Origin: Nitrospira sp.
Lineage (GTDB): Bacteria; Nitrospirota; Nitrospiria; Nitrospirales; Nitrospiraceae
Assembly: GCA_029194535.1 (NCBI GenBank)
Contig: JARFXR010000001.1
Span: forward strand, 1,806,721 to 1,870,720
Direction: 5' to 3'
DNA: 64,000 nt
Made by a program: the position numbers and the translations under genes. This document shows, piece by piece, positions 6,155-59,663 of the stretch; the first letter of the stretch is position 1; every line of letters starts with the position of its first letter. The notes under the pieces were generated by a model. The model was not told the DNA's origin, made no database searches, and was given only the letters and a program-made list of their open reading frames with translations.

Positions 6155-8923
6155 ATGATTGAGCGCCACACAAGAGTGCCGCGACTGACGACATGGTTGG
6201 GATATAGCTCGGAATCCGAATCAAGGCCAGTGATGACACCTCATTTGCTGTCGCAGGACCATACGATTCTGGAACGGGGAACGATGCAGTTCGTCCCGTT
6301 CGGTGTCGATGCGCGCGGCGAACCGGTCCGAGACGTCAGTGGCATCGTCATCCGCGACAACGTGGACTATCTGGAGGAGTGGATGACTCGGACCAAAGGG
6401 ACCGAGGCGGCTCGACGAGCCATCGAGGAGCTGTGCCGGCTGCTCAACCGACGCTTGCGCGATTCCTCGCACCACGTGACGCTCGAGCAGTTGCGCAATG
6501 TCTGGAACAGCTACTCGTACGAATTCACGTCGTATCTGCGCGAGTTTTGTCGGGAACTGTCCGAGGATCCCGCGTTCTACCGGAACGTCGGACGGGAGAA
6601 GCACATTTCCCCGCTGATTCAGGCATTGGGGCGACCCTTCAGCCTGGCGCAAGTCCACCGTATGTATCCCTATTACGCGAAGAAATTCGCCCGGGGTCTG
6701 GACTATTCGGTCGTCGCCGTCACGGAATCATCGGCGGTGCTGCGCTTGAGTCTGACTCAGCGGGTCTATGAGCAATTCGGATCCTACCGAAAAGCTTGCG
6801 CAGCGCAGATCTGCGAGTCCGTCAAAGGGCGGCTGGCCATGGTTCCGGCGAAGCTGCATGGGCTGCCGCCGTCCACCGTGACGGATCGGGCATGCATTGT
6901 CAGGGGCGACGCGCACTGCGAGTGGGAGGTTCGATGGCAGTCGCAGTCGAACCGCCATGTCGCATGGCATGTGTGGGGCGCGCTCGTCGGGGCGCTGGCG
7001 GCGGCGGCGATGCGATCCTTGTTTTCCGGGGTAAGCATCGGAGAACTCGCCCTGGCGGCGCTCGTGCCGATAATCGTGTCCGGAACGCTGATCAATCGAC
7101 GGTTGCATCAGGAGAGCCGACTGCGGGAAACGTTGATTAAAGAACAGATGGCCGACGTGGAATCGCGCCATGAACAGCTTCGGGACGCCTATCTTGAGCA
7201 GGAGCAGACGCGCGTGGAGTTGCGGAGAAAGATCAGCCATCTGATGGTCCTGCATCGAGCCGGGCTGCTCTTCAGTTCCATGCTCGACCGTGAGGTGTTG
7301 CTGCAACAGGTCTTGGAGACCCTGACCAGTGACTTGCATTTCGACAGAGCCATGATCTCGTTTTATGACCCGGACCAACAGGTGGCCAAGGACGCGAGAC
7401 TCGTCGGCGTGTCTCCCGAGGTCACGGCTCGAGCCCGTGCCAGCGTCATTCCCGTGTCGGACCCCGAGAGTCCGGAGGGCACGGTGTTGTTGCGCGGCAC
7501 CCCGCTGCTGATTGGCGATATCCGGACGGTGTGGGGACGCCTGCATCCATCGACCAAGCAACTGGCGATGCTGATCGGGACCAAGGCGTTCATCGTCGTG
7601 CCGCTGAAGGCCAAAGATCGCATCCTCGGTTGCCTGATGGTCGATCGAATGCAGGAGCATTGTCTGACTCTTGAGGATCTTGAGCTGTTGGTCACCTTCG
7701 CCCACCAGGTCGCCGGGGCGATGGACAACGCGGCTGCGTACCGCCAAATCGAAGAGCTCAACGTGGGATTGGAAGCCAAGGTCCGCGAGCGCACGGCCGA
7801 ACTGGAACAGGCGGACCGTCTGCGTTCGCAGTTTCTGTCCCATGTGTCGCACGAACTGAAAACGCCGCTGACATCAATCAAGGGCTTTCTGCAGAACATG
7901 TTGGATGGACTGACCGGGACGGTGAACGAGAAACAGCAGCGATATCTGTTCCGTGTGCTGGAAAACTCCGAGCGCCTCATCCGCATGATCGACGATCTTC
8001 TCGACCAAACGCGGATTCAAACCGGCCGGCTGGAGTTGGTTCCGGCCCAGGTCGATCTGGCCCACGCGGTGTCCGATGCAGTGGAGCAGCTCAGGCCTCT
8101 GGCTCAAGGCAAGCGGCACAAGCTGGAGGCGGTGTATCCCTCCGTTCCGTTGATTGTCTGGGCTGATCGGGATCGGCTGTTCCAGATCGTCACCAACCTG
8201 GTCCAGAATGCGGTGAAGTTCACGCCGGAATGCGGATGCGTCACCGTGGAGGTGACGATGGCGCATCCGTGCGCCGCCAAGATTTCCGTCCAGGATTCCG
8301 GTCCCGGTATTCCCCCTGAATTCATCGACAAGGTCTTCGATCCATTCTTCAAGCTGAAGGCGCGGACCGAGACCAAGGGATTGGGACTGGGGCTCTCCAT
8401 CGTGCGCACCCTCGTCGAATTGCATGGAGGCGCCATCGAGGCGCGGAGCGGCGAGGACGAAGGGGCGGAGTTTTCGGTCACTCTTCCACTGTGGTCTCCA
8501 CCGAACATCCATGTGAAAGGGGGGATCAATCGGATGGCGCCGGTTCTGGTGGTCGATGACGACTCGGACATTCGGCAATATTTGGAAGATCGCCTGAGGG
8601 CCAAGGGCTATGACGTCCGATCGGAAAGCGACGGTCTCCGGGCTCTGGAAGCGATCTGTCGGGAAACGTTCTCGGGCATGATCCTGGACATCGGCCTGCC
8701 GTCGATCGGCGGCATGGAATTGCTGAGACGGATCCGCCGGAAGGATCAACAGGTCCCGATCGTGATGGTGACGGCGTCTGGGGCCAGGGACACGGCTGTG
8801 CAGGCCATTGGGAGTGGCGCCCAAGCCTATCTGCTGAAGCCGTTTCATGCGGACGAATTGGAGCAGGTAGTGAACACCTGGTTCGGGGCCGCGGAACCTG
8901 CGAGCCGAGAGGCTGCTGAATGA
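6155..8923 (+). CDS. Hybrid sensor histidine kinase/response regulator
   Basis: A 922-aa multidomain sensor. About residues 45-260 resemble a V4R-like sensory domain ending in ACIVRGDAHCEWEV (cysteines near 247 and 256). Two hydrophobic stretches (about 270-312) form a membrane hairpin, followed by a short coiled coil and a GAF domain (about 365-535). The HisKA box SHELKTPLTSIKG carries the phospho-accepting histidine near 566. HATPase motifs are NLVQNAVKF, DSGPGIP and KGLGLGLSI. A C-terminal receiver has DDD near 800 and acceptor Asp in ILDIGLPS near 843. No DNA-binding output is present. The start is uncertain: an ATG at 6233 is also plausible. Its stop overlaps the fadL-type gene by ATGA, implying coupling. 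Confidence 0.88.
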   Translation: MIERHTRVPRLTTWLGYSSESESRPVMTPHLLSQDHTILERGTMQFVPFGVDARGEPVRDVSGIVIRDNVDYLEEWMTRTKGTEAARRAIEELCRLLNRRLRDSSHHVTLEQLRNVWNSYSYEFTSYLREFCRELSEDPAFYRNVGREKHISPLIQALGRPFSLAQVHRMYPYYAKKFARGLDYSVVAVTESSAVLRLSLTQRVYEQFGSYRKACAAQICESVKGRLAMVPAKLHGLPPSTVTDRACIVRGDAHCEWEVRWQSQSNRHVAWHVWGALVGALAAAAMRSLFSGVSIGELALAALVPIIVSGTLINRRLHQESRLRETLIKEQMADVESRHEQLRDAYLEQEQTRVELRRKISHLMVLHRAGLLFSSMLDREVLLQQVLETLTSDLHFDRAMISFYDPDQQVAKDARLVGVSPEVTARARASVIPVSDPESPEGTVLLRGTPLLIGDIRTVWGRLHPSTKQLAMLIGTKAFIVVPLKAKDRILGCLMVDRMQEHCLTLEDLELLVTFAHQVAGAMDNAAAYRQIEELNVGLEAKVRERTAELEQADRLRSQFLSHVSHELKTPLTSIKGFLQNMLDGLTGTVNEKQQRYLFRVLENSERLIRMIDDLLDQTRIQTGRLELVPAQVDLAHAVSDAVEQLRPLAQGKRHKLEAVYPSVPLIVWADRDRLFQIVTNLVQNAVKFTPECGCVTVEVTMAHPCAAKISVQDSGPGIPPEFIDKVFDPFFKLKARTETKGLGLGLSIVRTLVELHGGAIEARSGEDEGAEFSVTLPLWSPPNIHVKGGINRMAPVLVVDDDSDIRQYLEDRLRAKGYDVRSESDGLRALEAICRETFSGMILDIGLPSIGGMELLRRIRRKDQQVPIVMVTASGARDTAVQAIGSGAQAYLLKPFHADELEQVVNTWFGAAEPASREAAE

Positions 8924-45454: not shown

Positions 45455-45484
45455 TTGACAAGTTTTGTCCCTCTCTCCTAGAGT
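45455..45484 (+). promoter_or_regulatory. Promoter of the btuFCD transcript
   Basis: A perfect TTGACA -35 box and a TAGAGT -10 box separated by 18 bases, directly upstream of the first cobalamin riboswitch. Confidence 0.65.
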
Positions 45485-45499
45485 GCCCCCTCACATAAC

Positions 45500-45640
45500 C
45501 TTCAGGTAAGGGAAGAGGGTGCAAATCCCTCGCGGTCCCGCCGCTGTCAGTGGGGACGAAACCCGCGAAAACCACTGTCCAACTCATTTGGATGGGAAGG
45601 CGTGGGGAGTAGGGTGAACCATAAGCCAGAAGACCTGCTT
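45500..45640 (+). promoter_or_regulatory. Cobalamin riboswitch 1
   Basis: Conserved parts of the AdoCbl-type aptamer occur in order: GGGAAGAGGGTGCAAATCCC, GCGGTCCCGCCGCTGT, the CCACTGT block, GGGAAGG and the B12 box AAGCCAGAAGACCTGC (45623-45638). CAGGT at 45503-45507 pairs with ACCTG at the 3' end to close the fold. It controls btuF-btuC-btuD and the downstream nitrilase gene. Confidence 0.93.
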
Positions 45641-45701
45641 GGAGGAGTACCAACTGTTCTCTCGTGGGCTGGGGAACGGGCGAGGATGAAGAAGCGGGTG
45701 C

Positions 45702-45744
45702 AATCCTCAGGGTCGTCACTAGGCCTTGAGGATTTTTTATTTTC
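45702..45744 (+). terminator. Riboswitch 1 attenuator terminator
   Basis: An eight-base-pair stem, AATCCTCA with TGAGGATT, followed by TTTTATTTT, lies between the aptamer and the first gene. It is the expected off-state structure, so cobalamin probably reduces expression by premature termination. Confidence 0.8.
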
Positions 45745-45819
45745 CGCACATTGATCCGCTTCCTGCGTCCAGTTCATTCGGCTGTGACACTCCGGTGGAT
45801 TCGTCCGGTTCTCCATCGG

Positions 45820-46854
45820 ATGTTGAGGCTCGGTCGGAACGTGCGGAGCAATCGCACCCCGTCGTTTCGAGGCTATGTCCTTGGATGCCTGAGCATCCTC
45901 ATTGTGGTGTCCGTCTCGGACGATGGTCTGAGCGAAGCCTATGGGAGTTCCGTTGTGAAGCGTCGACAGCAGGGCATTCTCACCGGAATGCCATTCATGG
46001 CCAATATCATGCCACGGACATTCGTGGACGATGCCGGAAGAAAACTCTACATTGCGAAGCCGCCTACACGGGTTGTGTCGCTCGCCCCGAGCATCACGGA
46101 AATGCTGTTCGCCCTGGGGCTTGATGAGCAGATTGTCGGCGTCACGGAGCTTTGCAACTATCCATCGGCCGCCTTGTCCAAACCAAAGATCGGATATGCT
46201 CGTCCCAATATTGAAACGCTGGTCGCGCTTCGACCCGATATGATTGTGGCGCCGCAGGAGTTTCTCCGTGCCGACATACTGGCCAAGCTGGAAGAGCTGA
46301 GAATTCCCGTCTTCCTCGTTGAGGCGAAGACGATCGGCGATATCCTGATGCAGATCCAGAGCCTGGGAAAAATATTCAACAAGGTGAAGATGTCCGATGC
46401 GATCACGGGGACCATGCGGGATCGTATGGCCCGAGTGACGAAACGGGTCGCAACCTCGAAAGAAAAGCGCGTGCTCTATGTACTCAATAGTCATCCGCTG
46501 ATCACCGTGGGACCGGGAAGTTACATCCATCACATGATCGGGCTAGCAGGTGGGATCAATGTGGCACGAAGCAGCGAGTCTCCCTATCCAAGTCTCAGTC
46601 TGGAAACGGTGTTGCAGGAAGACCCGGAGGTCCTCATTTTTCCCGTCGGATCCGTCGAGAGTATTCCGAAGAGTGAGCAGGACGAATGGAACCGTTGGAA
46701 AAGCCTGTCGGCCGTTCGGAACCGACAGCTCCTCGAAGTGTCATCAGATGCCCTCAATCGTCCCGGGCCTCGTGTGGTGGAAGGACTGGATCTCCTCGCT
46801 CGAGCCATTCACCCCGAGGCGTACCTCTCAGACGAAGCCCATCCCTCGCCATGA
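45820..46854 (+). CDS. btuF: Cobalamin ABC transporter substrate-binding protein (BtuF-like)
   Basis: A periplasmic binding protein of the helical-backbone (BtuF/FhuD) type, about 344 aa from the chosen start. A hydrophobic export segment lies near the N-terminus (YVLGCLSILIVVSV). The domain opens with RVVSLAPSITEMLFALGL and continues LDEQIVGVTELCNYP, both typical of BtuF. Start uncertain: a TTG at 45751 is in frame. Stop overlaps btuC as ATGA. Vitamin B12 specificity is supported by the upstream riboswitch. Confidence 0.88.
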   Translation: MLRLGRNVRSNRTPSFRGYVLGCLSILIVVSVSDDGLSEAYGSSVVKRRQQGILTGMPFMANIMPRTFVDDAGRKLYIAKPPTRVVSLAPSITEMLFALGLDEQIVGVTELCNYPSAALSKPKIGYARPNIETLVALRPDMIVAPQEFLRADILAKLEELRIPVFLVEAKTIGDILMQIQSLGKIFNKVKMSDAITGTMRDRMARVTKRVATSKEKRVLYVLNSHPLITVGPGSYIHHMIGLAGGINVARSSESPYPSLSLETVLQEDPEVLIFPVGSVESIPKSEQDEWNRWKSLSAVRNRQLLEVSSDALNRPGPRVVEGLDLLARAIHPEAYLSDEAHPSP

Positions 46855-48005
46855 TATTGCCATCAGATCCTTCTGTACCTTCCTCATCGGCCGGCATTCC
46901 TACCTCATTGCCAGAACCGAAAATGCTGCCATTTGACCTCGCCGATGACGAGGTGTTTCGAAAGTCCACGGTGGGCACGGGACGCTGGATCACGATCATC
47001 GCCGTTCTCTCGGCTTCGGCCGTCCTCTCCGCGATCGTGTGCCTCCAGTTCGGAGCACGATTCGTCGGAGTACACGACATGTTGCGTCTCCTCTTTCTGG
47101 CGCCTGGAGAAAGCGGCGATGCTGCCGGCGATCTCGACACTGTGACAACGATCCTGCTGTATGTCCGTTTGCCGAGAGTCGTGTTGGGATTCCTCGTTGG
47201 TGGCTGTCTGGCGACTGTTGGGGTTGCTGTGCAGGCGCTGCTGCGCAATCCATTGGCCGATCCCTACGTGCTCGGTGTGTCGAGTGGGGCGGCCCTCGGT
47301 GTATCCGTCGCTGTCCTGTTCGGAGTGGGCTCGACCATATTACCGGTCGTCGTCTTACCGCTCTGCGGGTTCGCCGGTAGCCTCGTGGCGTTGCTGGTGA
47401 TTTATCAGATCGCGGCAAGCGATGGCCGATTGCCGATCTACAGCGTCTTACTGGCCGGCGTCATACTCAACGCCGTCCTATCGGCCCTCATCATGTTTAT
47501 TACCTCAATTATGGACCCCAACCGCTCCTTCGGCATGATGATCTGGCTCATGGGGTCGCTTACGGCTCCCGCCATTCCTACATTGCTGGTGTTTTCCCTT
47601 TACGTACTTGTCTGTCTCGGTTTCCTACTCAAACAGGCCAGGGTGCTGAACATCGTGGCATTCGGTGATGAACAGGCACGGTCGCTGGGGATTGATACGG
47701 AACGGACCAAGCGACACATTTTTCTGGTTTCGGCACTGATGACCGGAGCGGTCGTTTCCGTCAGCGGAATGGTGGGCTTCATCGGCATGGTCGTCCCCCA
47801 TGTGGTGCGTCTCATCGTCGGAGCCGACCACCGCCTCGTGATGCCGGCCGCGGCGTTGGTCGGCGGGACGTTCTTGATGGTCGCTGATACCTTCGCCCGC
47901 ACCGTTCTTTTGCCATCCGAGCTACCGGTGGGAATCATGACGGCGCTGGTGGGCGGACCGTTCTTTGTCTCTCTCCTCATCCGGCGAAAGGATCGAATGT
48001 TGTGA
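46851..48005 (+). CDS. btuC: Cobalamin ABC transporter permease (BtuC-like)
   Basis: FecCD/BtuC-family permease, 384 aa, with about ten membrane segments after a 45-residue soluble N-terminus. RLPRVVLGFLVGGCLATVGVAVQALLRNPLADPYVLGVSSGAALG is the family core, and GMVGFIGMVVPHVVRLIVGADHR is the coupling region with the ATPase. Start taken at the ATGA overlap with btuF. Confidence 0.92.
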   Translation: MILPSDPSVPSSSAGIPTSLPEPKMLPFDLADDEVFRKSTVGTGRWITIIAVLSASAVLSAIVCLQFGARFVGVHDMLRLLFLAPGESGDAAGDLDTVTTILLYVRLPRVVLGFLVGGCLATVGVAVQALLRNPLADPYVLGVSSGAALGVSVAVLFGVGSTILPVVVLPLCGFAGSLVALLVIYQIAASDGRLPIYSVLLAGVILNAVLSALIMFITSIMDPNRSFGMMIWLMGSLTAPAIPTLLVFSLYVLVCLGFLLKQARVLNIVAFGDEQARSLGIDTERTKRHIFLVSALMTGAVVSVSGMVGFIGMVVPHVVRLIVGADHRLVMPAAALVGGTFLMVADTFARTVLLPSELPVGIMTALVGGPFFVSLLIRRKDRML

Positions 48006-48892
48006 CGGTTCCTGTCGAACGAGATTTCAGCGGTGATCGAGCGGAGTCTGTCAAGGACGAGCCACTCCATGTCTATCATCTTCGCAATGTGCGATTTCAC
48101 TACGGACGTCGCGATTCGGACGCTCCTCGCTGGACCTTGCAAGACGTCAGCTTTCTTGTGGAGCCTGGAGAGATGCTTGCCATTGTCGGCCCGAATGGAT
48201 CAGGCAAGACATCGTTGCTGAAGCTGCTGGCGAAGATCGTTCCGCAGCAACAAGGAACCATCACGCTCTTCGGGAACCTCCTCTCTAAACTGAGGCAGGA
48301 CGATGTCGCTCGAGACGTCGCATTTGTTCCGCAGGATACGTCTCAGAGCTTCCCTTTCACCGTGGCCGAAACGGTCCTCATGGGACGATTCCCTCATCGG
48401 CACCGAAGGCCGTGGCATCTGGGATTTGGGTGGGATAGCCAGGACGATCGCACCATTGCGCGGCAGGCGATGGTGACCATGGATGTTTGGAAGCTGGCCA
48501 CACGTCCGGTGACGGAATTGTCTGGCGGGGAACGACAGCGTGCGGTGATCGCTCGATCGCTCGCCCAAGATCCGCGAGTGCTCTTGCTCGATGAACCCAC
48601 TGCCTTTCTTGACCTTCAACACCAGATCGAGATTTGTGCCCTGTTGCTCCGGCTCAAGCGGGCGCGTGGCCTGACTCTCGTCTTGGTGTCTCATGACTTA
48701 AATTTGGCCAGTCAGTATTGCGACCGGGTGCTGCTCTTGGATCAGGGGCGAGTCGTTCGGCTCGGCTCCCCGACTGAGGTCATTCAGCGGGACGTGTTGG
48801 AAAGCGTGTATCGGTGCCGAGTCCTTGTGGATCCCCATCCGCTTTCAGGACTGCCCCGTGTGACGCTGCCAAGTCGCAATATGGTGATGTAG
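48002..48892 (+). CDS. btuD: Cobalamin ABC transporter ATP-binding protein (BtuD-like)
   Basis: ABC ATPase, 296 aa. Walker A GPNGSGKTS, signature LSGGERQRAVIARSLA, Walker B VLLLDEPTAFLD and the switch histidine in LVLVSHDLN are all present. A GTG start overlaps the btuC stop. Belongs to the Fe-chelate/B12 importer class, and the riboswitch favours B12. Confidence 0.93.
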   Translation: MTVPVERDFSGDRAESVKDEPLHVYHLRNVRFHYGRRDSDAPRWTLQDVSFLVEPGEMLAIVGPNGSGKTSLLKLLAKIVPQQQGTITLFGNLLSKLRQDDVARDVAFVPQDTSQSFPFTVAETVLMGRFPHRHRRPWHLGFGWDSQDDRTIARQAMVTMDVWKLATRPVTELSGGERQRAVIARSLAQDPRVLLLDEPTAFLDLQHQIEICALLLRLKRARGLTLVLVSHDLNLASQYCDRVLLLDQGRVVRLGSPTEVIQRDVLESVYRCRVLVDPHPLSGLPRVTLPSRNMVM

Positions 48893-48896
48893 GCGG

Positions 48897-49673
48897 ATGC
48901 GGATGAGGTTCGGAAAGATTGCCTTGCTCCATCTCCGCGTAGCACCGGGAGATGTTCAACGCGATCGGTCCGTGATTGTCGAGGCCGTGAAACATGCAGC
49001 CCGGGCCGGTGCGCAGTGGATTGTGACGCCTGAGCTTGCCGTCTGCGGACTGCAGTTTCCACAGGCCATCGGGACCGACTGGATTCAGCCACAACCGGAC
49101 CAATGGACGGCGCGTTTCTGTCACCTCGTGAGAGAGCTGAAGCGGACGGTGTTTTTGTCCTGTCCGGAACGAGAGGGACGGAAGCTGTACAACTCCGTGT
49201 TCGTCATTGACCCGGCAGGTCAGATTATTGGCAAACATCGAAAGATCAACGTCAAGAGCGATTCTCTGTCCTGGTCTACTCCCGGCGAGAGCATTGCTCC
49301 CATAGAGTGCGACGGTGTCAAGGTTGGTGTCCTGATCTGCAGCGACGTGTATACGCGAAATCTCACGGATGCTCTCAAGATCGGAGGAGCACAATTGCTC
49401 ATTTCGCCGGCATCCTGGGGACCAGGAATCCATGGTCCGAGCGGTGAGTGGGAGGAACGGACAAAGGAAACCGATCTTCCGTTATTCGTCTGTAATCGAA
49501 CGGGAGGCGAGAAGACGCTCGACTTTGGAAGGGCTCCAAGTCTCGTGGTCAAGAATGGGAAGAGGGTTCTTTCACATGCGTCAGCGCGTTCCGCCGTCTT
49601 AACCTTTGACTGGGACTTCAATGCTATGGCCCCTCTCTCGACTGAATATCATGTCGAGTATTTCAGGGAATGA
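48897..49673 (+). CDS. Nitrilase-family carbon-nitrogen hydrolase
   Basis: A 258-aa member of the nitrilase superfamily with the full catalytic triad: E46 in TPELAVCG, K116 in GKHRKINV and C148 in VLICSDVY. It should hydrolyse an amide or carbamoyl bond. It lies four bases after btuD and ends before the second riboswitch, so it is probably under riboswitch 1. No such enzyme is established in cobalamin metabolism; action on a corrinoid amide or base precursor is possible but unproven. Confidence 0.85.
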   Translation: MRMRFGKIALLHLRVAPGDVQRDRSVIVEAVKHAARAGAQWIVTPELAVCGLQFPQAIGTDWIQPQPDQWTARFCHLVRELKRTVFLSCPEREGRKLYNSVFVIDPAGQIIGKHRKINVKSDSLSWSTPGESIAPIECDGVKVGVLICSDVYTRNLTDALKIGGAQLLISPASWGPGIHGPSGEWEERTKETDLPLFVCNRTGGEKTLDFGRAPSLVVKNGKRVLSHASARSAVLTFDWDFNAMAPLSTEYHVEYFRE

Positions 49674-49807
49674 TCCGTTGGTCTTGTTCCAAAGATTTGC
49701 TCGATAGCTAGCGGACCACGTGAACTAGGCGGAAAGAGGATGCACCCGCTCTTTCCGAGTGAGCAATAGGGTGAATCACATTCGTGCGGAGGGATTCACA
49801 AGGGGAT

Positions 49808-49960
49808 AACCGTCAGCGCCGGGGAAGATGGTGTAAACCCATCACGGTGCCGCCACTGTAAGCGGGGAGCGACTTTGCGAATACGCCACTGTGGATGACA
49901 TTCCATGGGAAGGTGCAGAGAAGCGATGAGCCGCGAGTCAGGAGACCCAACTGACGGAAG
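49808..49960 (+). promoter_or_regulatory. Cobalamin riboswitch 2
   Basis: The aptamer is recognised from GGGGAAGATGGTGTAAACCC, CGGTGCCGCCACTGTAAGCG, the GCCACTGT block, CATGGGAAGGTGC and the B12 box region GAGTCAGGAGACCC (49936-49949). CCGTCAG near 49810 pairs with CTGACGG near 49951 to close the fold. It precedes btuB and the cobalamin assembly genes. Confidence 0.92.
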
Positions 49961-49965
49961 CCATA

Positions 49966-49990
49966 ACACCCTTCGAGTCAAAGGGAGGTT
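49966..49990 (+). promoter_or_regulatory. Ribosome-site sequestering hairpin of riboswitch 2
   Basis: ACCCTT and AAGGG(A) around a short loop cover the ribosome binding site AAAGGGAGG that precedes btuB. There is no following T-run. This suggests control of translation rather than termination, unlike riboswitch 1. Confidence 0.5.
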
Positions 49991-49993
49991 GTC

Positions 49994-52063
49994 ATGTCGT
50001 CGCGTTTCGGTTCATTCGTACTTCGAGCGCTGGTATTCACGCTCGGGATGTGTATTCCCCTTCACGCGGTATTCGCAGAGGAGATTGCGACAACGGATCC
50101 GCCAACAGCCCACGCTGCTGCCACTGAAGAGGGCACGCTGACTGATAGGCCGACGGTCCTTGAAGCTCCCGAGGTGGTGATCAGCGCCACAAAGACGGAA
50201 GTTCCCATCAAGCAAGTGACCAGCGCGGTCGAAATCATGACTGGCGAACAGATGGAGCAACGGAGAGTGAGAACCGTTGCGGAGGCGCTACGGTGGGCTC
50301 AAGGTCTAGCCGTCTTCCAAAGTGGAGGCCCGGGCACCAACGTCGGTGTGCGGATGCGCGGGGGAACACCCGAGCAGACCTTGGTGCTGATCGATGGCGC
50401 CATCGTCAACAGTGCGACGCTTGGATCGTACGATTTCGCCAATTTGACGAGCGACAACATCGAACGGATTGAAATTTTGCGTGGCAGCCAGGGCATGATG
50501 TGGGGATCCGACGCCATGGGCGGGGTGATCAACATTACCACGAAGCGAGGTCGAGAAACTCCGAACATCGGAGCCTTTGTCGAGTATGGGTCCTTTACGA
50601 CGATTCGTGAGGGTGCGAACATCTCAGGGAAGAAAGGGGCATTCGATGTTGCCGCAACACTCACTCGCTGGGATGCGGCAAGCTTCTCCGCGATCAACTA
50701 TCGGCGAGGGGCGAGCGAGCGGGATGGATTCCATAATTGGCAAGGGTCCGTCCGGCTGGGCGTTGATCTTCCGAAGGACGGGCGATTGGACTTTAACTTT
50801 CGGTGGATGAATAGCATCGTCAATTTCGATGGGGTTGCGTTCAATCCAATCACGTTCGGCTCTGATCCGGCCGATGTGCTCGGAGCAACATCAAAAAGCC
50901 AGCAGTTTGTTTATTCGGGCAGCTATCTGCAGCCCATCACGAATTGGTGGTCGCAAAAGCTGACTTTGGCGCGTGCCACGGAGAGTCTGATCTCACAGTC
51001 AGGGACGGTCGAGCGTAATCTCGTGACCGGGGCTGTGGGCGTACCCTTCGCGTTTAACTCAGAAATCAACACGACGAGCAACCGCATCGAATGGCAGCAC
51101 GATTTTCAGATTGCCAAGCCCTTGGCGCTGACGGCGGGATATCAATTCCGCGAACAGATCGGAGAGAATTTCGATACCCTGGCCGGCACGACGACCATAC
51201 CGAGTAAGAACATCAGCAGCAATGCGGGATTCGCCGAAGCCAAGTTAAACCTCTGGGATCGGTTGTTTGGAACGGCGGGCATCCGGCAGGATGAATATAA
51301 CGTGTTCGGCAGTGCGACGACCTATCGCTTCACCGGAGGGTATCTGCATAAGGAAACCGGTACTAAGCTACGGGGCAGCTATGGGACTGGATTTCGGGCG
51401 CCGACGGTCAATCAGTTGTTCTTTCCCGATTTCGGCAACCCTAACTTACAGCCTGAACAGAGCAAGGGCATGGACGTGGCGTTAGACCAATCACTGTTCA
51501 ACGATCGAGTAGTCCTCAGTGTGGGCTATTTCTGGAACCGGTATCAGAATCTTATCCTGTCGGTCTTCGATCCGGCCGGGTGCAATTTCACCACGTTTGG
51601 ATTTTGCGCCCAAAACATCGGTGCAGCCAGAGCCGAGGGTATCGAGGCGAGCGCAAAGCTCCAAATCATGCGTGATCGACCGGGAATCAAGAGTTTGGAT
51701 CTACAGTTTCAATATACGTACACCAGCACGGAAAACTTGACGAACAATGCTGATACGCGCTTACCGCAGTGGCCCTTGAATCAATGGTCAACGATTCTGA
51801 GCTATCAACCGATCGAATCGCTGCGAGCCAATTTGGAAGGCCGCTATGCGGGGCAGCGGTTCAGCGACGTGAGTAATCAGCTGTCGGTCCCGTCGTTCTA
51901 CGTTTTCAACGCCTCTGCGACCTACAATGTCAGTAGAACCATTCAAGTTTATGGGCGGGCCGATAATATTTTTAATCAGAAGTATGAAGAAGTGTTGTAC
52001 TTCGGCACTCCCATTCGATCGGTGTTCGGTGGGGTTCGAGTGAATTTTGACGTGCCGTTGTAG
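49994..52063 (+). CDS. btuB: TonB-dependent cobalamin receptor (BtuB-like)
   Basis: Outer-membrane receptor, 689 aa: signal peptide (about 1-30), a TonB-box-like EVVISATKTEVP near residue 55, plug domain (MRGGTPEQTLVLIDGAIVN, then RIEILRGSQGMMWGSDAMGGVINI) and 22-strand barrel region ending GGVRVNFDVPL. The terminal residue is Leu rather than the usual aromatic. Specificity is inferred from the riboswitch and the cob genes that follow. Confidence 0.9.
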   Translation: MSSRFGSFVLRALVFTLGMCIPLHAVFAEEIATTDPPTAHAAATEEGTLTDRPTVLEAPEVVISATKTEVPIKQVTSAVEIMTGEQMEQRRVRTVAEALRWAQGLAVFQSGGPGTNVGVRMRGGTPEQTLVLIDGAIVNSATLGSYDFANLTSDNIERIEILRGSQGMMWGSDAMGGVINITTKRGRETPNIGAFVEYGSFTTIREGANISGKKGAFDVAATLTRWDAASFSAINYRRGASERDGFHNWQGSVRLGVDLPKDGRLDFNFRWMNSIVNFDGVAFNPITFGSDPADVLGATSKSQQFVYSGSYLQPITNWWSQKLTLARATESLISQSGTVERNLVTGAVGVPFAFNSEINTTSNRIEWQHDFQIAKPLALTAGYQFREQIGENFDTLAGTTTIPSKNISSNAGFAEAKLNLWDRLFGTAGIRQDEYNVFGSATTYRFTGGYLHKETGTKLRGSYGTGFRAPTVNQLFFPDFGNPNLQPEQSKGMDVALDQSLFNDRVVLSVGYFWNRYQNLILSVFDPAGCNFTTFGFCAQNIGAARAEGIEASAKLQIMRDRPGIKSLDLQFQYTYTSTENLTNNADTRLPQWPLNQWSTILSYQPIESLRANLEGRYAGQRFSDVSNQLSVPSFYVFNASATYNVSRTIQVYGRADNIFNQKYEEVLYFGTPIRSVFGGVRVNFDVPL

Positions 52064-52161: not shown

Positions 52162-52368
52162 ATGCTGGGTCCGATCAGCAAGACGTGTGAGGCCTGCAGT
52201 CAGACATTCGAATGCGGACAATACCGTTGTTGGTGCGGGCATCTCGGCGTGACGGAACAGCAGATGGATTGGATCGAGCGGAAATTCAAGGATTGTCTCT
52301 GTCCAGTGTGTCTTCGGAAGGTGATCAGCGGAGTGCTGGGGCCCGGTCGTACTCCCGGCCCTCAATGA
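52162..52368 (+). CDS. Cysteine-rich CWC-family small protein
   Basis: A 68-aa protein with eight cysteines (C9, C12, C18, C23, C25, C45, C47, C50), matching the bacterial cysteine-rich CWC family: CEACSQTFEC, then RCWCGHL and DCLCPVCL. Probably binds zinc. It sits between btuB and the adenosyltransferase and nearly abuts the latter. Function unknown; family known only by its motif. Confidence 0.75.
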   Translation: MLGPISKTCEACSQTFECGQYRCWCGHLGVTEQQMDWIERKFKDCLCPVCLRKVISGVLGPGRTPGPQ

Positions 52369-52376
52369 GGCATGGC

Positions 52377-52970
52377 ATGCGCATTACGAAAGTCTATACC
52401 AGGACGGGAGATGCGGGGCAAACCAGGCTGGCCGGCGGGCAACAGGTTTGGAAAGACAGCCTCAGGGTAGAGGTCTACGGCACTGTGGATGAGCTGAACG
52501 CATCGGTCGGTCTTGTTCGAGCGATGAACGAGGAATCGGCTCTGGCGACGGATTCGGCAACACGGCTTGAAGAAGACCTTCGCTGGATCCAGAACAAGCT
52601 CTTCGATCTTGGCAGCATTCTGGCCACAGCGCCCGGTCAGTCCTTCAAGAACATGCCGACAATCACTGCGCAGGATGTCGTGAAACTAGAGCGAATGATC
52701 GACCGGTGCCAAAAGGATCTCGCTCCGCTCAAGGAATTTATCCTGCCGGGAGGAGGAAAAGTCTCAGCCACGCTGCATCAGGCCAGAACGATCTGTCGAC
52801 GTGCCGAGCGGGTGTGCATTCGGCTGGCCAAGGAAGAAACGGTGGATCCGCAGATGAACAAATTCTTAAATCGCCTGAGCGATGCCTTGTTCGTGCTGGC
52901 TCGATGGGCGGCCAAGCAACGCGGAGAACCGGAGTTTCTCTGGGAGCGAGACCCGAAGGAATCCGGCTAG
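52377..52970 (+). CDS. PduO-type ATP:cob(I)alamin adenosyltransferase
   Basis: Adenosylates cob(I)alamin or cobinamide to the coenzyme form; about 197 aa. TKVYTRTGDAGQTRLAGG at the N-terminus binds ATP, and the C-terminal block FILPGGGKVSATLHQARTICRRAER is diagnostic of PduO/MMAB. The start at 52377 has GAGG at good spacing; an ATG four codons earlier is possible. Needed before CobU/CobS act. Confidence 0.93.
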   Translation: MRITKVYTRTGDAGQTRLAGGQQVWKDSLRVEVYGTVDELNASVGLVRAMNEESALATDSATRLEEDLRWIQNKLFDLGSILATAPGQSFKNMPTITAQDVVKLERMIDRCQKDLAPLKEFILPGGGKVSATLHQARTICRRAERVCIRLAKEETVDPQMNKFLNRLSDALFVLARWAAKQRGEPEFLWERDPKESG

Positions 52971-52982
52971 GGACAGCCAGAC

Positions 52983-54479
52983 ATGGCGGCGCGTAGACTC
53001 ATGGTGCAAGGTACTGCGTCTCACGTGGGAAAGTCCGTGCTCACGGCGGGTCTCTGCCGCTTGTATCACCGCCGGGGTCTTCGGGTGGCGCCATTCAAGG
53101 CGCAGAACATGTCGAACAATTCCTTCGTCACGCCGGACGGAAAGGAAATCGGCCGTGCTCAGGCGGTTCAGGCGGCGGCCTGCCGTGTGGCTCCGCGCGC
53201 GGACTTCAATCCTGTCCTGATCAAGCCAGGCGGCGAGACATCCGCGCAGCTTGTCGTGGATGGGGAGGTTGCGGGAACCTTGTGCGCCAGGGATTTCGGC
53301 CTGATACGCCGCAGGCATTGGGGGACCATTCAACGGGCATTCTCCCGTCTGGAGGAGGATTTCGATTTGCTTGTGCTCGAAGGAGCAGGCAGTCCGGCGG
53401 AAGTGAATCTGAGAGAGTGCGATGTCGTCAACATGGCGATGGCCCGGCATGCCGATGCGCGAGTTTTGCTGGTCGGTGATATCGATCGGGGTGGGGTGTT
53501 TGCCTCACTGGTGGGGACCTGGACCCTGCTTGACGAAGCGGATCGTCGGCTACTAAAGGCCTTTGCGATCAACAAGTTTCGAGGAGATTCCAGCCTTCTT
53601 ACGGAAGGGATTGACCGGGTAATTCGTGACACGGGAATGCAATGCGCCGGCGTACTGCCCCATTGGGGAGATTTGGAGCTGCCTGAAGAGGATTCCTGGG
53701 GTTGGAAATGGCGTCGGCCTCGACAGCGCGACCGTCCTGATCGGATCGTCATCGGTATTGTCGATCTGCCTGCTATTTCTAATGCTACGGACTTTGAGCC
53801 GTTGACAGATGAGGCGGATGTGGAAGTGGTTCCGCTGGATCAGACAACCGATCGCCGTTTGGATGCGTTGTTGTTCCCAGGTTCCAAGCAGACAGTCCAA
53901 GCGCTCGGGTTTGTCCGGGCGAATGGATTCGATCGCCTGGCGCATCGAGTCTTGGACGAGGGGGGAACCGTCGGCGGGATTTGTGCCGGCTACCAATTGC
54001 TGGGCCGCGTCATCAGCGACCCGGATCGTGTGGAATCGGATGACGTGAGGGTGGCCGGCCTCGGCCTCTTGCCTGTCGAGACAGTCTTCGCGGCCACGAA
54101 AGTTGTACAGGCCGTATCTGGTCGTCATGTAGAGAGCGGGCTTCCGCTGTCCGGGTACCAAGTAAGAATGGGGCGAACATCCGGCGACGATACACTTACA
54201 GCATTTCTTGAAATGTATGATGATAACGATTTGACAATACGGATCGACGGCATTTCAACTGTTGGGGGTCGTGTATTTGGAACCTATCTCCATGGATTGT
54301 TCGACTCGACACCGTTTCGACGTTGGTGGGTGAACGAGTTGCGGGTAGCAAGAGGATGGGCACCCGTTTCAGAAACTCGAAGCCTCTCGCTCGATACCAG
54401 ACTGGATCTGTGGGCCGACTTCATCGAGGAACATCTGTCGATGGCCGTGATCGACAGCCTGGTCGATGGGCATGTCTAG
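52983..54479 (+). CDS. cobQ: Cobyric acid synthase
   Basis: Glutamine-dependent amidation of adenosylcobyrinic acid a,c-diamide at four carboxylates; 498 aa. N-terminal P-loop-like ATPase part: MVQGTASHVGKSVLTAGLCR and FKAQNMSNNS. The C-terminal glutaminase domain has GICAGYQLLGR (nucleophilic Cys) and FGTYLHGLFD. It normally belongs to de novo synthesis, whereas the neighbours here are salvage genes; see findings. Confidence 0.94.
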   Translation: MAARRLMVQGTASHVGKSVLTAGLCRLYHRRGLRVAPFKAQNMSNNSFVTPDGKEIGRAQAVQAAACRVAPRADFNPVLIKPGGETSAQLVVDGEVAGTLCARDFGLIRRRHWGTIQRAFSRLEEDFDLLVLEGAGSPAEVNLRECDVVNMAMARHADARVLLVGDIDRGGVFASLVGTWTLLDEADRRLLKAFAINKFRGDSSLLTEGIDRVIRDTGMQCAGVLPHWGDLELPEEDSWGWKWRRPRQRDRPDRIVIGIVDLPAISNATDFEPLTDEADVEVVPLDQTTDRRLDALLFPGSKQTVQALGFVRANGFDRLAHRVLDEGGTVGGICAGYQLLGRVISDPDRVESDDVRVAGLGLLPVETVFAATKVVQAVSGRHVESGLPLSGYQVRMGRTSGDDTLTAFLEMYDDNDLTIRIDGISTVGGRVFGTYLHGLFDSTPFRRWWVNELRVARGWAPVSETRSLSLDTRLDLWADFIEEHLSMAVIDSLVDGHV

Positions 54480-55026
54480 GAGGCAGGTCAAACGGCGGTC
54501 TTCTCGAGTATTGTTTATCCTGGGTGGAGCCTCCTCCGGAAAGAGTGATGCAGCCCTCCGGCTCGCGGTGAAGGGAATCAGCCCAACTGCCTCGCGGGCC
54601 TTCGTCGCGACTGGTCAAGCCCTGGACGAAGAAATGACCGAGCGGATTGCCCGCCACCGGTCCTCCAGGCCGGCGACGTGGATTACGGCCGAAGTGCCCT
54701 TGGACTTGACCGGATGGGTCAAGCAACACGGCAGGGAGCACCGGGTTATTGTCGTGGATTGTGTGACCATGTGGCTCTCGAATCAATGCGGACGAGGAAG
54801 ACGAGACGCCCGGATTGTTCAGGATGTGCAGAATCTTCTTGATGCAGCCCGGCAGACGGGGGCGCGGATCGTGTTGGTGGCGAATGAGTTGGGCATGGGG
54901 ATTGTCCCCGGTGACGCGGTCAGTCGCCGTTTCAGGGAATTGGCTGGCGCAATCAATCAGTTGATTGCGAACGAGGCTGATGAGACGTATCTGGTGGTGA
55001 GCGGACTCAGTGTTCGGTTGAAATAG
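54466..55026 (+). CDS. cobU: Adenosylcobinamide kinase / guanylyltransferase
   Basis: Phosphorylates adenosylcobinamide and transfers GMP to make AdoCbi-GDP; 186 aa. The P-loop is ILGGASSGKSDAALRLA near residues 16-32, and VDCVTMWLSNQ and VANELGMGIVPGDAVSRRFRE match the family's nucleotide-binding regions. It begins within the last codons of cobQ. Confidence 0.92.
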   Translation: MGMSRRQVKRRSSRVLFILGGASSGKSDAALRLAVKGISPTASRAFVATGQALDEEMTERIARHRSSRPATWITAEVPLDLTGWVKQHGREHRVIVVDCVTMWLSNQCGRGRRDARIVQDVQNLLDAARQTGARIVLVANELGMGIVPGDAVSRRFRELAGAINQLIANEADETYLVVSGLSVRLK

Positions 55027-57802: not shown

Positions 57803-58905
57803 GGGCGGCGGACAAACACGGGGGAAATATCCATGCGGTAGCAGCTGAGTTGGGACGAAGATCGTCTTCACTCCTTGATTTCAGCGCCAGTATCAATCCG
57901 CTTGGGCCGTCGCTGAACGTTCGTCGGATGCTGCTTCACCAAAAAGAGCGTCTGATGAGACACTATCCGGATCCAGACAGCAGGAGTCTAAGGCGAGCGC
58001 TCGCATTGCGATGGAGCTTGTCTCCGCAACACTTTGTCATCGGAAACGGATCGACCGAACTGATCCATCTCCTTCCTCGTGCGTTGTGCATTCGTTCGGC
58101 GCTGGTTGTGGGACCCACGTTCTCTGAATACGGCACTGCATTGAATTTGGCTGACGCACGGGTGCATGCCGTGTCGGCGATGAGACGAGACGGCTATCGC
58201 CCGCCGCTTGATGAAGCCGCGAGATGGATTTGGTCGGTCGGCCGACGAGATCGATCCGTTTCTGCGGTGTTTCTCTGCAATCCGAACAGTCCCACGGGTC
58301 AGGCATGCGAATCCGATGAGTTGGCAGAGTTTGTCGGACGGGTTGATCAGTCCGGTGTCTGGTTGATTCTCGACGAAACGTTCATGGAATATTGTGAGGG
58401 TCTGTCGTTGCTTCCTATGGTGCGGCGTTACCCTCGATTGATTGTGTTGAGAAGTTTCACGAAGTTCTACGCCCTGCCCGGTCTCAGAATCGGATACACA
58501 GTCTGCGCCCCCTCGATTGCCGAGACGTTGCGCCGACATCAACCACCATGGTCGGTCAATAGTGTTGCCCAAGCGGCGGCGGAAACCGCGATGAACGATC
58601 GGCGATACGTCCGGCGCTCCCTGGCGTATATGGAAGGGGAACGCGAACGTTTCTCGACACTCCTGGCCGATATTCCAGGACTCAGGGTTTTTCCCTCTCG
58701 GGCAAATTTTCTGCTGCTCGAGCTGCCAGAGCTCCATCGAGCACACCGTACGACCGAGGCGTTGAAGCGAAAAGGGATCCTGGTCCGAGACTGTTCGCGC
58801 GTGCCCGGGCTCACATCATGGTCGATCAGGGTTGCTGTGCGTACGAGACCGGAGAACGATCGGATGGTTTCTGCCCTGCGACGACTGCTGCCGAGCATAC
58901 CGTGA
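57781..58905 (+). CDS. cobD: Threonine-phosphate decarboxylase CobD-like
   Basis: PLP enzyme of the class I/II aminotransferase fold, 374 aa, making aminopropanol phosphate for CbiB. It opens with KHGGNIHAVAAELG and LLDFSASINPLGPS, a signature that separates CobD from HisC. The PLP lysine is K228 in RSFTKFYALPG. It overlaps cbiB by 22 bases and is coupled to cbiZ. A histidinol-phosphate aminotransferase is unlikely given this context. Confidence 0.92.
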   Translation: MGALVALRAADKHGGNIHAVAAELGRRSSSLLDFSASINPLGPSLNVRRMLLHQKERLMRHYPDPDSRSLRRALALRWSLSPQHFVIGNGSTELIHLLPRALCIRSALVVGPTFSEYGTALNLADARVHAVSAMRRDGYRPPLDEAARWIWSVGRRDRSVSAVFLCNPNSPTGQACESDELAEFVGRVDQSGVWLILDETFMEYCEGLSLLPMVRRYPRLIVLRSFTKFYALPGLRIGYTVCAPSIAETLRRHQPPWSVNSVAQAAAETAMNDRRYVRRSLAYMEGERERFSTLLADIPGLRVFPSRANFLLLELPELHRAHRTTEALKRKGILVRDCSRVPGLTSWSIRVAVRTRPENDRMVSALRRLLPSIP

Positions 58906-59663
58906 TTAGCAAAAAGCGCGGACGGTTTGTGGTCAAGCACCAGGTGGTGCTGAACACGCTGGTTCTCCGTCTGGACGGCGTGCATCGGGTCTTGTCGTCT
59001 GCACCGGGAGGAGGGGGATTGGTCCGAGCGCGCTCCATTCTGAATCACCAAGTGGCCGCGAACCCGATGGCGACCGGTACTCGAAAGGGGCAACCCTCCA
59101 AGGCCACACCACATTGGCGTGACCCGGCACGGTTTCTAAGCATGCTGGCCGACCGGTTGGGCGTAGATCGGCCAGTGGTCGGGCTCATGACGGCCGTACC
59201 GATGACACGGTTGGTGCGCCGTCGAGAGGCGAAGGATGGGGTTTGGGTCGAATGTTTCTGTACAGTCGGAGTCGCGAATGCCGTTACGGCCGGCGAACCG
59301 GCACGGCGTGATCTCAGGGTGAGCGGGCGTAGTCCGTACGGCACGATCAATATCATTCTCGTGACGAATGCGACGTTGACGGCGTCGGCAATGGTGGGAG
59401 CCGTCCAGGTAGCTACGGAGAGTAAGACGGCTGTCCTGCTCGGGCGATATATCCCAAGCGCATCTGGACGTGGCTCTGCGACCGGCACAGGCACGGACGC
59501 GGTTGTGGTGGCCGCCAGCAGTCGTGGTCGCCACAGGATCCAATACAGCGGTACGCATACCCAAATCGGATCGATGATCGGGCGCCTCGTCACTCGCTGT
59601 GTCGGGATGGGTCTGAAGCGATGTCTTCGTGGACGCCGGGCATCCCTCCCTGATCCGACTTGA
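58902..59663 (+). CDS. cbiZ: Adenosylcobinamide amidohydrolase CbiZ
   Basis: Hydrolyses the aminopropanol arm of adenosylcobinamide or pseudo-B12 to adenosylcobyric acid, allowing the lower ligand to be replaced; 253 aa. Motifs: CTVGVANAVTAGEPA, SPYGTINIILVTNATLT, ATESKTAVLLG, ATGTGTDAVVVAA and YSGTHTQIGSMIGR. The start is taken at GTG 58902, which overlaps the cobD stop (GTGA). It is often viewed as an archaeal-type enzyme that spread to some bacteria. Last gene of the cobalamin operon. Confidence 0.92.
   Translation: MISKKRGRFVVKHQVVLNTLVLRLDGVHRVLSSAPGGGGLVRARSILNHQVAANPMATGTRKGQPSKATPHWRDPARFLSMLADRLGVDRPVVGLMTAVPMTRLVRRREAKDGVWVECFCTVGVANAVTAGEPARRDLRVSGRSPYGTINIILVTNATLTASAMVGAVQVATESKTAVLLGRYIPSASGRGSATGTGTDAVVVAASSRGRHRIQYSGTHTQIGSMIGRLVTRCVGMGLKRCLRGRRASLPDPT

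Follow-up and report, generated by a model that had tools for sequence, protein, structure and literature searches.

The B12 import locus and its genes

The analysed window is a stretch of 64,000 nucleotides of Nitrospira sp. DNA, part of a genome of 3.98 Mb. It contains B12 import genes, next to which lies a gene for a nitrilase-superfamily protein, here named NIT, with Nitrospira MAGs as its closest named relatives. All features of the window described below are on the + strand. The unit btuF-btuC-btuD-NIT is headed by cobalamin riboswitch 1 (45464..45656; Rfam RF00174, 92.9 bits). Just 3' of it, a terminator-like hairpin with a 13-pair stem and a T tail (45702..45734, pattern match only) is a possible expression platform of this riboswitch; terminator-like sites overall occur at a chance number (7 observed against 6.1 expected).

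The importer is represented by genes of a btuF-like periplasmic binding protein (45751..46854; PF01497, E 2e-31), the real start of which is probably further in, a btuC-like permease (46686..48005 as the ORF is listed; PF01032, E 5e-84), which probably starts near 46853 and overlaps the btuF stop, and a btuD-like ATPase (48002..48892; PF00005, E 3e-33). Four bases separate NIT (48897..49673; PF00795, E 4e-25; 258 aa) from the btuD stop at 48892, or ten if the second ATG is used. This second ATG, at 48903, is probably the start of the protein (256 aa), since many orthologues begin with MRxGKIALLHL. NIT is followed by cobalamin riboswitch 2 (49797..49969; RF00174, 89.1 bits) and the gene of a btuB-like TonB-dependent receptor (49994..52063; PF00593 and PF07715; TIGR01779, 246 bits, cut-off 600). 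The first-pass annotation had placed NIT directly after btuD, between the B12 importer and receptor genes and apparently under riboswitch 1, and this layout held: the riboswitch heads the unit, and a pattern scan detected no + strand terminator-like sites between btuD and NIT. The candidates for BtuF, BtuC, BtuD and BtuB each score under the NCBIfam B12-specific cut-off, so the substrate of the importer and the receptor was assigned from the family, the riboswitches and the neighbouring genes.

Downstream of btuB are genes of a PduO-type cob(I)alamin adenosyltransferase (52212..52970; TIGR00636, 190 bits, over the cut-off), cobyric acid synthase cobQ (52983..54479; NF001989, 549 bits, over the cut-off) and cobU (54466..55026; NF004469, 170 bits, cut-off 161). 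The next unit includes cbiZ, encoding adenosylcobinamide amidohydrolase (58818..59663; PF01955, E 2e-51), as had been annotated from the sequence. CbiC was not found in 109 of the 118 genomes of the order, the host included, and because of this the host presumably lacks the corrin ring pathway. The gene cobQ is nevertheless kept, and in the family CobQ is present in 52 of 71 genomes while CbiC is present in only nine; CobQ without CbiC suggests that incompletely amidated corrinoids are salvaged. The host genome also contains a second, stand-alone nitrilase-like gene (L001; NF040852, 286 bits, below the cut-off of 500). A phage search was negative at E 1e-10.

Family, fold and active site of NIT

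The sole Pfam match of NIT at E 0.001 is PF00795 (CN_hydrolase), which covers residues 8-242 (89 bits, E 4.3e-25, cut-off 23.2); the CbiZ domain PF01955 is absent. No NCBIfam equivalog came near its cut-off and no curated subfamily fits: NIT scores 50.9 bits with the model of deaminated glutathione amidase (NF033621, cut-off 355) and 55.3 bits with that of N-carbamoylputrescine amidase (TIGR03381, cut-off 410). The structure model (pLDDT 92.3, pTM 0.92) has a nitrilase fold and, in a search of solved chains, matched superfamily amidases with Z of about 31 (best 31.6) at about 25% identity. To judge from the domain match and the modelled fold, NIT is a member of the nitrilase (carbon-nitrogen hydrolase) superfamily.

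Residues E46, K116 and C148, the Glu-Lys-Cys triad, do not vary among the 28 aligned sequences. Two hallmark blocks of the NIT family, one following the glutamate (IGTxWIxPQPDxW) and one following the cysteine (W-x-P-G-x-x-G-P-x-G-x-W-E), are mostly invariant in the same alignment. The triad thus stands as first annotated, but the description 'intact' goes too far, the triad being short of the full active-site set: the btu-linked clade has other residues in place of the second active-site glutamate, which is absent from all 31 sequences read (30 by pattern and L046 by eye, with two partial sequences left out). The residue two before the conserved tryptophan is L, R or S in the 30 pattern-matched sequences and L in L046, in the motif SDSLSW or close variants. 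Glutamate is kept at this place in 30 of 30 pattern-matched sequences of the sister clade, of the Myxococcota genome G118, of Geobacteraceae and of L059. The assignment of this position rests on the alignment, in which loop lengths vary. The btu clade has a conserved aspartate, D122, two residues ahead of the lost glutamate, and the member of the family from Peribacillus, also without the second glutamate, has aspartate at that very place, with DDW where others have SEAW.

The second glutamate is highly conserved in the nitrilase superfamily, as stated in the accessible text of PMC4812014; in some members it is essential and positions the substrate, according to the accessible part of PMC6946656. 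It is reported for many superfamily members and is no universal criterion of membership. Since this residue is lost, the chemistry or the substrate positioning of the btu clade probably differs from that of ordinary amidases, and the protein may have an unusual substrate or serve in acyl transfer. A stronger reading is that the btu-clade protein has lost the hydrolysis of ordinary amides and either transfers acyl groups or binds corrinoids as an accessory protein. The consistent loss of the glutamate in the btu clade, its retention elsewhere and its essential role in some members speak for such a protein, but the invariant triad, the conserved D122, which might stand in for the lost residue, and the Peribacillus member with aspartate in its place make this reading quite unlikely.

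Distribution, co-occurrence with CbiZ and neighbourhoods of NIT

Close orthologues of NIT (67-100% identity) were found in 11 of the 118 genomes of the order, the host included. The neighbourhood is conserved in these relatives: btuD is directly upstream of NIT in all 11 loci, and btuB is downstream in ten, the contig ending in the eleventh. A further 24 Nitrospira-type loci come from public contigs, of which two bear the label Nitrosospira, and overlap in organisms with the 11-genome set; NIT is preceded by btuD in 23 of them, the remaining contig beginning within NIT, and followed by btuB in 21, with contig ends in the rest. Both cobalamin riboswitches were found in all eight btu-linked loci scanned, including a locus with a NIT remnant in genome G050. 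In the tree of the NIT family, from which sequences under 240 aa or with an internal stop were omitted, 30 btu-linked sequences form one group (support 0.94), and their nearest sister is a single MAG sequence labelled Chloroflexi (support 0.996). A BtuC-like match was found in 109 of the 118 genomes, and btu-linked NIT in only 11; therefore, NIT is not needed for import. In G050, all that is left of NIT between btuD and riboswitch 2 is a C-terminal piece (L085, about 8014-8208, - strand), and CbiC, for de novo corrin synthesis, is encoded on the same contig. Two genomes with CbiC, G038 and G043, retain btu-linked NIT.

A sister clade, about 50% identical to the btu clade, is present in 28 further genomes of the 71-genome family, and in no case were both clades found in one genome (chance 0.002, ignoring phylogeny). 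Counting either clade, NIT and CbiZ are both present in 38 of the 71 genomes, NIT only in one, CbiZ only in ten and neither in 22. The NIT fragments of G050 and G117 were disregarded in these figures, which include G065 despite its one in-frame TGA. The ten CbiZ-only genomes lack an intact NIT, and in G026 NIT is present while CbiZ and CobU are absent. In genus g9, all five genomes with CbiZ have NIT, and all eight without CbiZ lack it.

Pagel tests were run for 65 genomes on a single-gene tyrS tree; G005, G012, G015, G023, G033 and G037, with no tyrS match, were excluded from the tree tests and kept in the 2x2 tables. The dependent model was preferred for NIT and CbiZ (LR 28.0, p 1.3e-5), followed by CobU (LR 22.1, p 1.9e-4) and CobQ (LR 12.9, p 0.012), the signal of CbiZ being the strongest of the three. 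The controls, urease (LR 2.5, p 0.64) and cyanase (LR 4.5, p 0.34), were not associated with NIT. Because CbiZ and CobU nearly coincide in the family, the association is best described as one with the module of remodelling and loop assembly; within CobU-bearing genomes, NIT and CbiZ remain associated (38, 0, 9 and 3 genomes in the order given above, p 0.011). NIT is thus genomically coupled to the functional class of corrinoid salvage.

Two other functions were considered and rejected. Replacement of CbiZ by NIT conflicts with the presence of CbiZ in 38 of the 39 NIT genomes, and participation in de novo synthesis conflicts with the similar frequency of CbiC in genomes with NIT (6/39) and without it (3/32; p 0.5). 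CobQ as an obligate partner, restoring amides that NIT strips, is not favoured: CobQ is present in 36 of the 39 NIT genomes, but also in 16 of the 32 genomes without NIT, and its phylogenetic signal is weaker than that of CbiZ.

Loci of the sister clade were analysed in 25 of its 28 genomes, 19 with several kb of neighbourhood and six with about 1.5 kb, G023, G054 and G068 being left out. All 25 loci are outside btu: the btu and cob proteins of the window match nothing nearby except ABC ATPases (30-34% identity), and no cobalamin riboswitch was detected in the six loci scanned. Genes of a soxC-type sulfite dehydrogenase and a cytochrome c were found within about 6 kb of NIT in four of the 19 larger stretches; the soxC-type gene adjoins NIT in L068 (3031-5912) and L072 (2313-8499) and is 5-6 kb off in L073 and L075. 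The stretch L072 also contains ECF transporter genes with a QueT-like part. Twin-arginine-like export signals of the RRQ type were found in seven sister-clade proteins from some of the Nitrospiraceae genera (L019, L023, L024, L027, L029, L030 and L084). Of the seven genomes concerned, six were inspected for CbiZ, and their copies have no obvious export signal.

Outside the phylum, NIT was detected in two of 282 Myxococcota-phylum genomes, G118 and G381, and adjoins CbiZ in both, in opposite gene orders. The search (E 1e-25, at most nine candidates scored per genome) began from G118, so that G381 is the only independent find. In G118, an exported-type NIT with a signal precedes an exported-type CbiZ, and the scanned stretch of this locus has no cobalamin riboswitch. 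In G381, CbiZ is followed by NIT, both with export signals, in a run headed by a cobalamin riboswitch, which also encodes a YncE-like propeller, an exported CobN-like protein, ExbB and a DUF2149 protein just under its cut-off. This operon-like run (L153 on contig G381:C993, 315-10723) further holds a PepSY protein, and the signal of its NIT is of the Tat type. From its gene content, it looks like an extracytoplasmic corrinoid-processing locus, and this arrangement is the strongest single hint that NIT and CbiZ share a process.

Against this hint stand copies elsewhere, those of Geobacteraceae and Peribacillus having no B12 context. Three Geobacteraceae MAGs contain a lipoprotein-like NIT, and CbiZ was found in none of these three, possibly incomplete, genomes. 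NIT directly follows a lipoprotein of 551-553 aa with an HExxH motif (L061, 439-2978; L062, 4229-6762; L065, where the lipoprotein-type NIT matches in the start region only), and this neighbour in L061 has a marginal M49-like peptidase match (E 1e-4). The copy on plasmid pA of Peribacillus (L234, 12001-12735; 47% identical) is located beside spore-germination genes. In the Chloroflexi-labelled MAG with NIT, CbiZ was not found.

The soxC-type neighbours of the sister clade speak for a more general role of NIT, and the marginal M49-like lipoprotein and the spore-germination genes beside the other copies point the same way, as does the lack of riboswitches in the sister-clade loci scanned. NIT might accordingly be a general amidase or a metabolite-repair enzyme that came to lie in the btu unit of some Nitrospira by chance. 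This explanation is quite unlikely: NIT scores far under the cut-offs of the deaminated-glutathione and carbamoylputrescine models, the host has the separate nitrilase-like gene described above, and the coupling with CbiZ is far above that of the urease and cyanase controls. The first-pass annotation had held that a conserved association with other loci, such as deaminated glutathione repair, together with inactivity on corrinoids, would speak against a function on corrinoids; the sister clade does lie elsewhere, but the btu clade stays with btu and the deaminated-glutathione score is low.

Possible role in corrinoid salvage and comparison with known systems

In our opinion, NIT hydrolyses an amide bond in corrinoid salvage, acting in the same process as CbiZ, with a probability of roughly 0.48. 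The idea of a second amide hydrolase in this salvage, raised in the first-pass annotation with corrinoid side chains or lower-ligand precursors as candidate substrates, gains from the synteny with btuCD, the co-variation with CbiZ and the adjacency to CbiZ in two Myxococcota-phylum genomes; the 28 sister-clade genomes, with loci outside btu wherever examined and soxC-type neighbours in part of them, tell against it. Counting against the salvage hydrolase are also the loss of the glutamate in the btu clade, the ten CbiZ genomes without NIT, and G026.

NIT might instead serve corrinoid salvage on a small molecule, namely, an aminopropanol-derived amide, a lower-ligand precursor, or cyanide or a nitrile from cyanocobalamin. 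The characterised superfamily members among the structure matches mostly act on small amides and nitriles, and this reading shares the genomic links of a corrinoid amidase; the adjacency to CbiZ itself, however, points at the corrinoid, and cyanide-degrading enzymes are distant matches only, which leaves a small-molecule substrate unlikely.

For the preferred salvage hydrolase, a mechanism may be proposed from the known chemistry of the superfamily. NIT would act after import or, in the forms with export signals, outside the cytoplasm. Cys148 would attack the amide carbon of an imported corrinoid, assisted by Lys116 and Glu46; a thioester would form with the departure of ammonia or an amine, and water would open it, freeing the acid. 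Foreign or damaged corrinoids would thereby be converted to carboxylates that CobQ or CbiB can rebuild. Which amide is cut is a guess: it could be the one of the aminopropanol linkage, in corrinoids not accepted by CbiZ, or one at the periphery of the molecule. Nitrospira marina is reported to be auxotrophic for B12, to need it from outside and to carry salvage genes (PMC8115632, accessible text). If NIT helped to make foreign corrinoids usable, this would fit that requirement and the failure to find CbiC in the host.

A more specific version, in which NIT is the first nitrilase-superfamily enzyme of cobamide remodelling, is tentative and less probable. Together with CbiZ, NIT would make up a two-amidase module, which would be cytosolic in Nitrospira but exported in Myxococcota. 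In scavenged corrinoids, NIT would open an amide not cleavable by CbiZ, and in the importer-linked branch it would do so without the usual second glutamate. NIT is a recognisable superfamily member whose biological role is probably new and whose corrinoid substrate is putative.

Many corrinoid-using bacteria scavenge B12 instead of making it, and the Nitrospira relatives appear to depend on scavenged B12. The conversion of mixed environmental corrinoids into usable ones is partly known and involves CbiZ, CbiR, CobS and the candidate DUF71-B12. A nitrilase-superfamily protein encoded in a B12-import operon and recurring with CbiZ may represent an unrecognised step in recycling scavenged B12. 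NIT is a candidate for a further step of corrinoid remodelling, directly testable because its partner gene is defined, a riboswitch heads its unit, its clade is clear and the residues concerned are named.

Among solved structures, the amidase PH0642 of Pyrococcus (PDB 1j31, 6ypa) resembles the NIT model most closely (Z 31.6, rmsd 2.2 over 238 residues), and the sequence alignments of PH0642 and related solved amidases overlap NIT. NIT differs from PH0642 in its low identity (25%), its own highly conserved loops and, in the btu clade, the loss of the second glutamate. No nitrilase-family step in B12 metabolism is proposed in the accessible parts of the open-access literature found, in line with the first-pass annotation, and nitrilase is mentioned in none of the publications on cbiZ or cobinamide amidohydrolase among the matches listed. 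The nitrilase-family protein MtnU, for which, as for NIT, no substrate specificity is assigned, is named together with btuB in one regulon study, but in the accessible text it is tied to methionine-salvage genes, and btuB is listed separately in the methionine regulon (PMC3228920). Among the NIT neighbours, no methionine-salvage genes were recognised in passing.

CbiZ is, like NIT in the preferred reading, an amidohydrolase of corrinoid salvage; it is co-present with NIT in Nitrospiraceae and adjacent to it in the two Myxococcota-phylum genomes, but belongs to an unrelated protein family (PF01955), and NIT accompanies it. The bond cut by CbiZ is the amide adjoining the aminopropanol linker; that cut by CbiR is the phosphoribosyl bond (PMC7733943, accessible text). 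The phosphodiesterase CbiR was, like NIT, spotted as a remodelling enzyme by its place near cobamide genes, but it belongs to the AP endonuclease 2 superfamily, as described in the same text. A parallel in context is DUF71-B12, which also adjoins btuFCD and for which a role in pseudo-B12 salvage was predicted from context; in the accessible part of that study (PMC3541065), it is a member of the PP-loop ATPase family, and its bacterial distribution is anti-correlated with that of CbiZ, unlike that of NIT, which tends to be found together with CbiZ.
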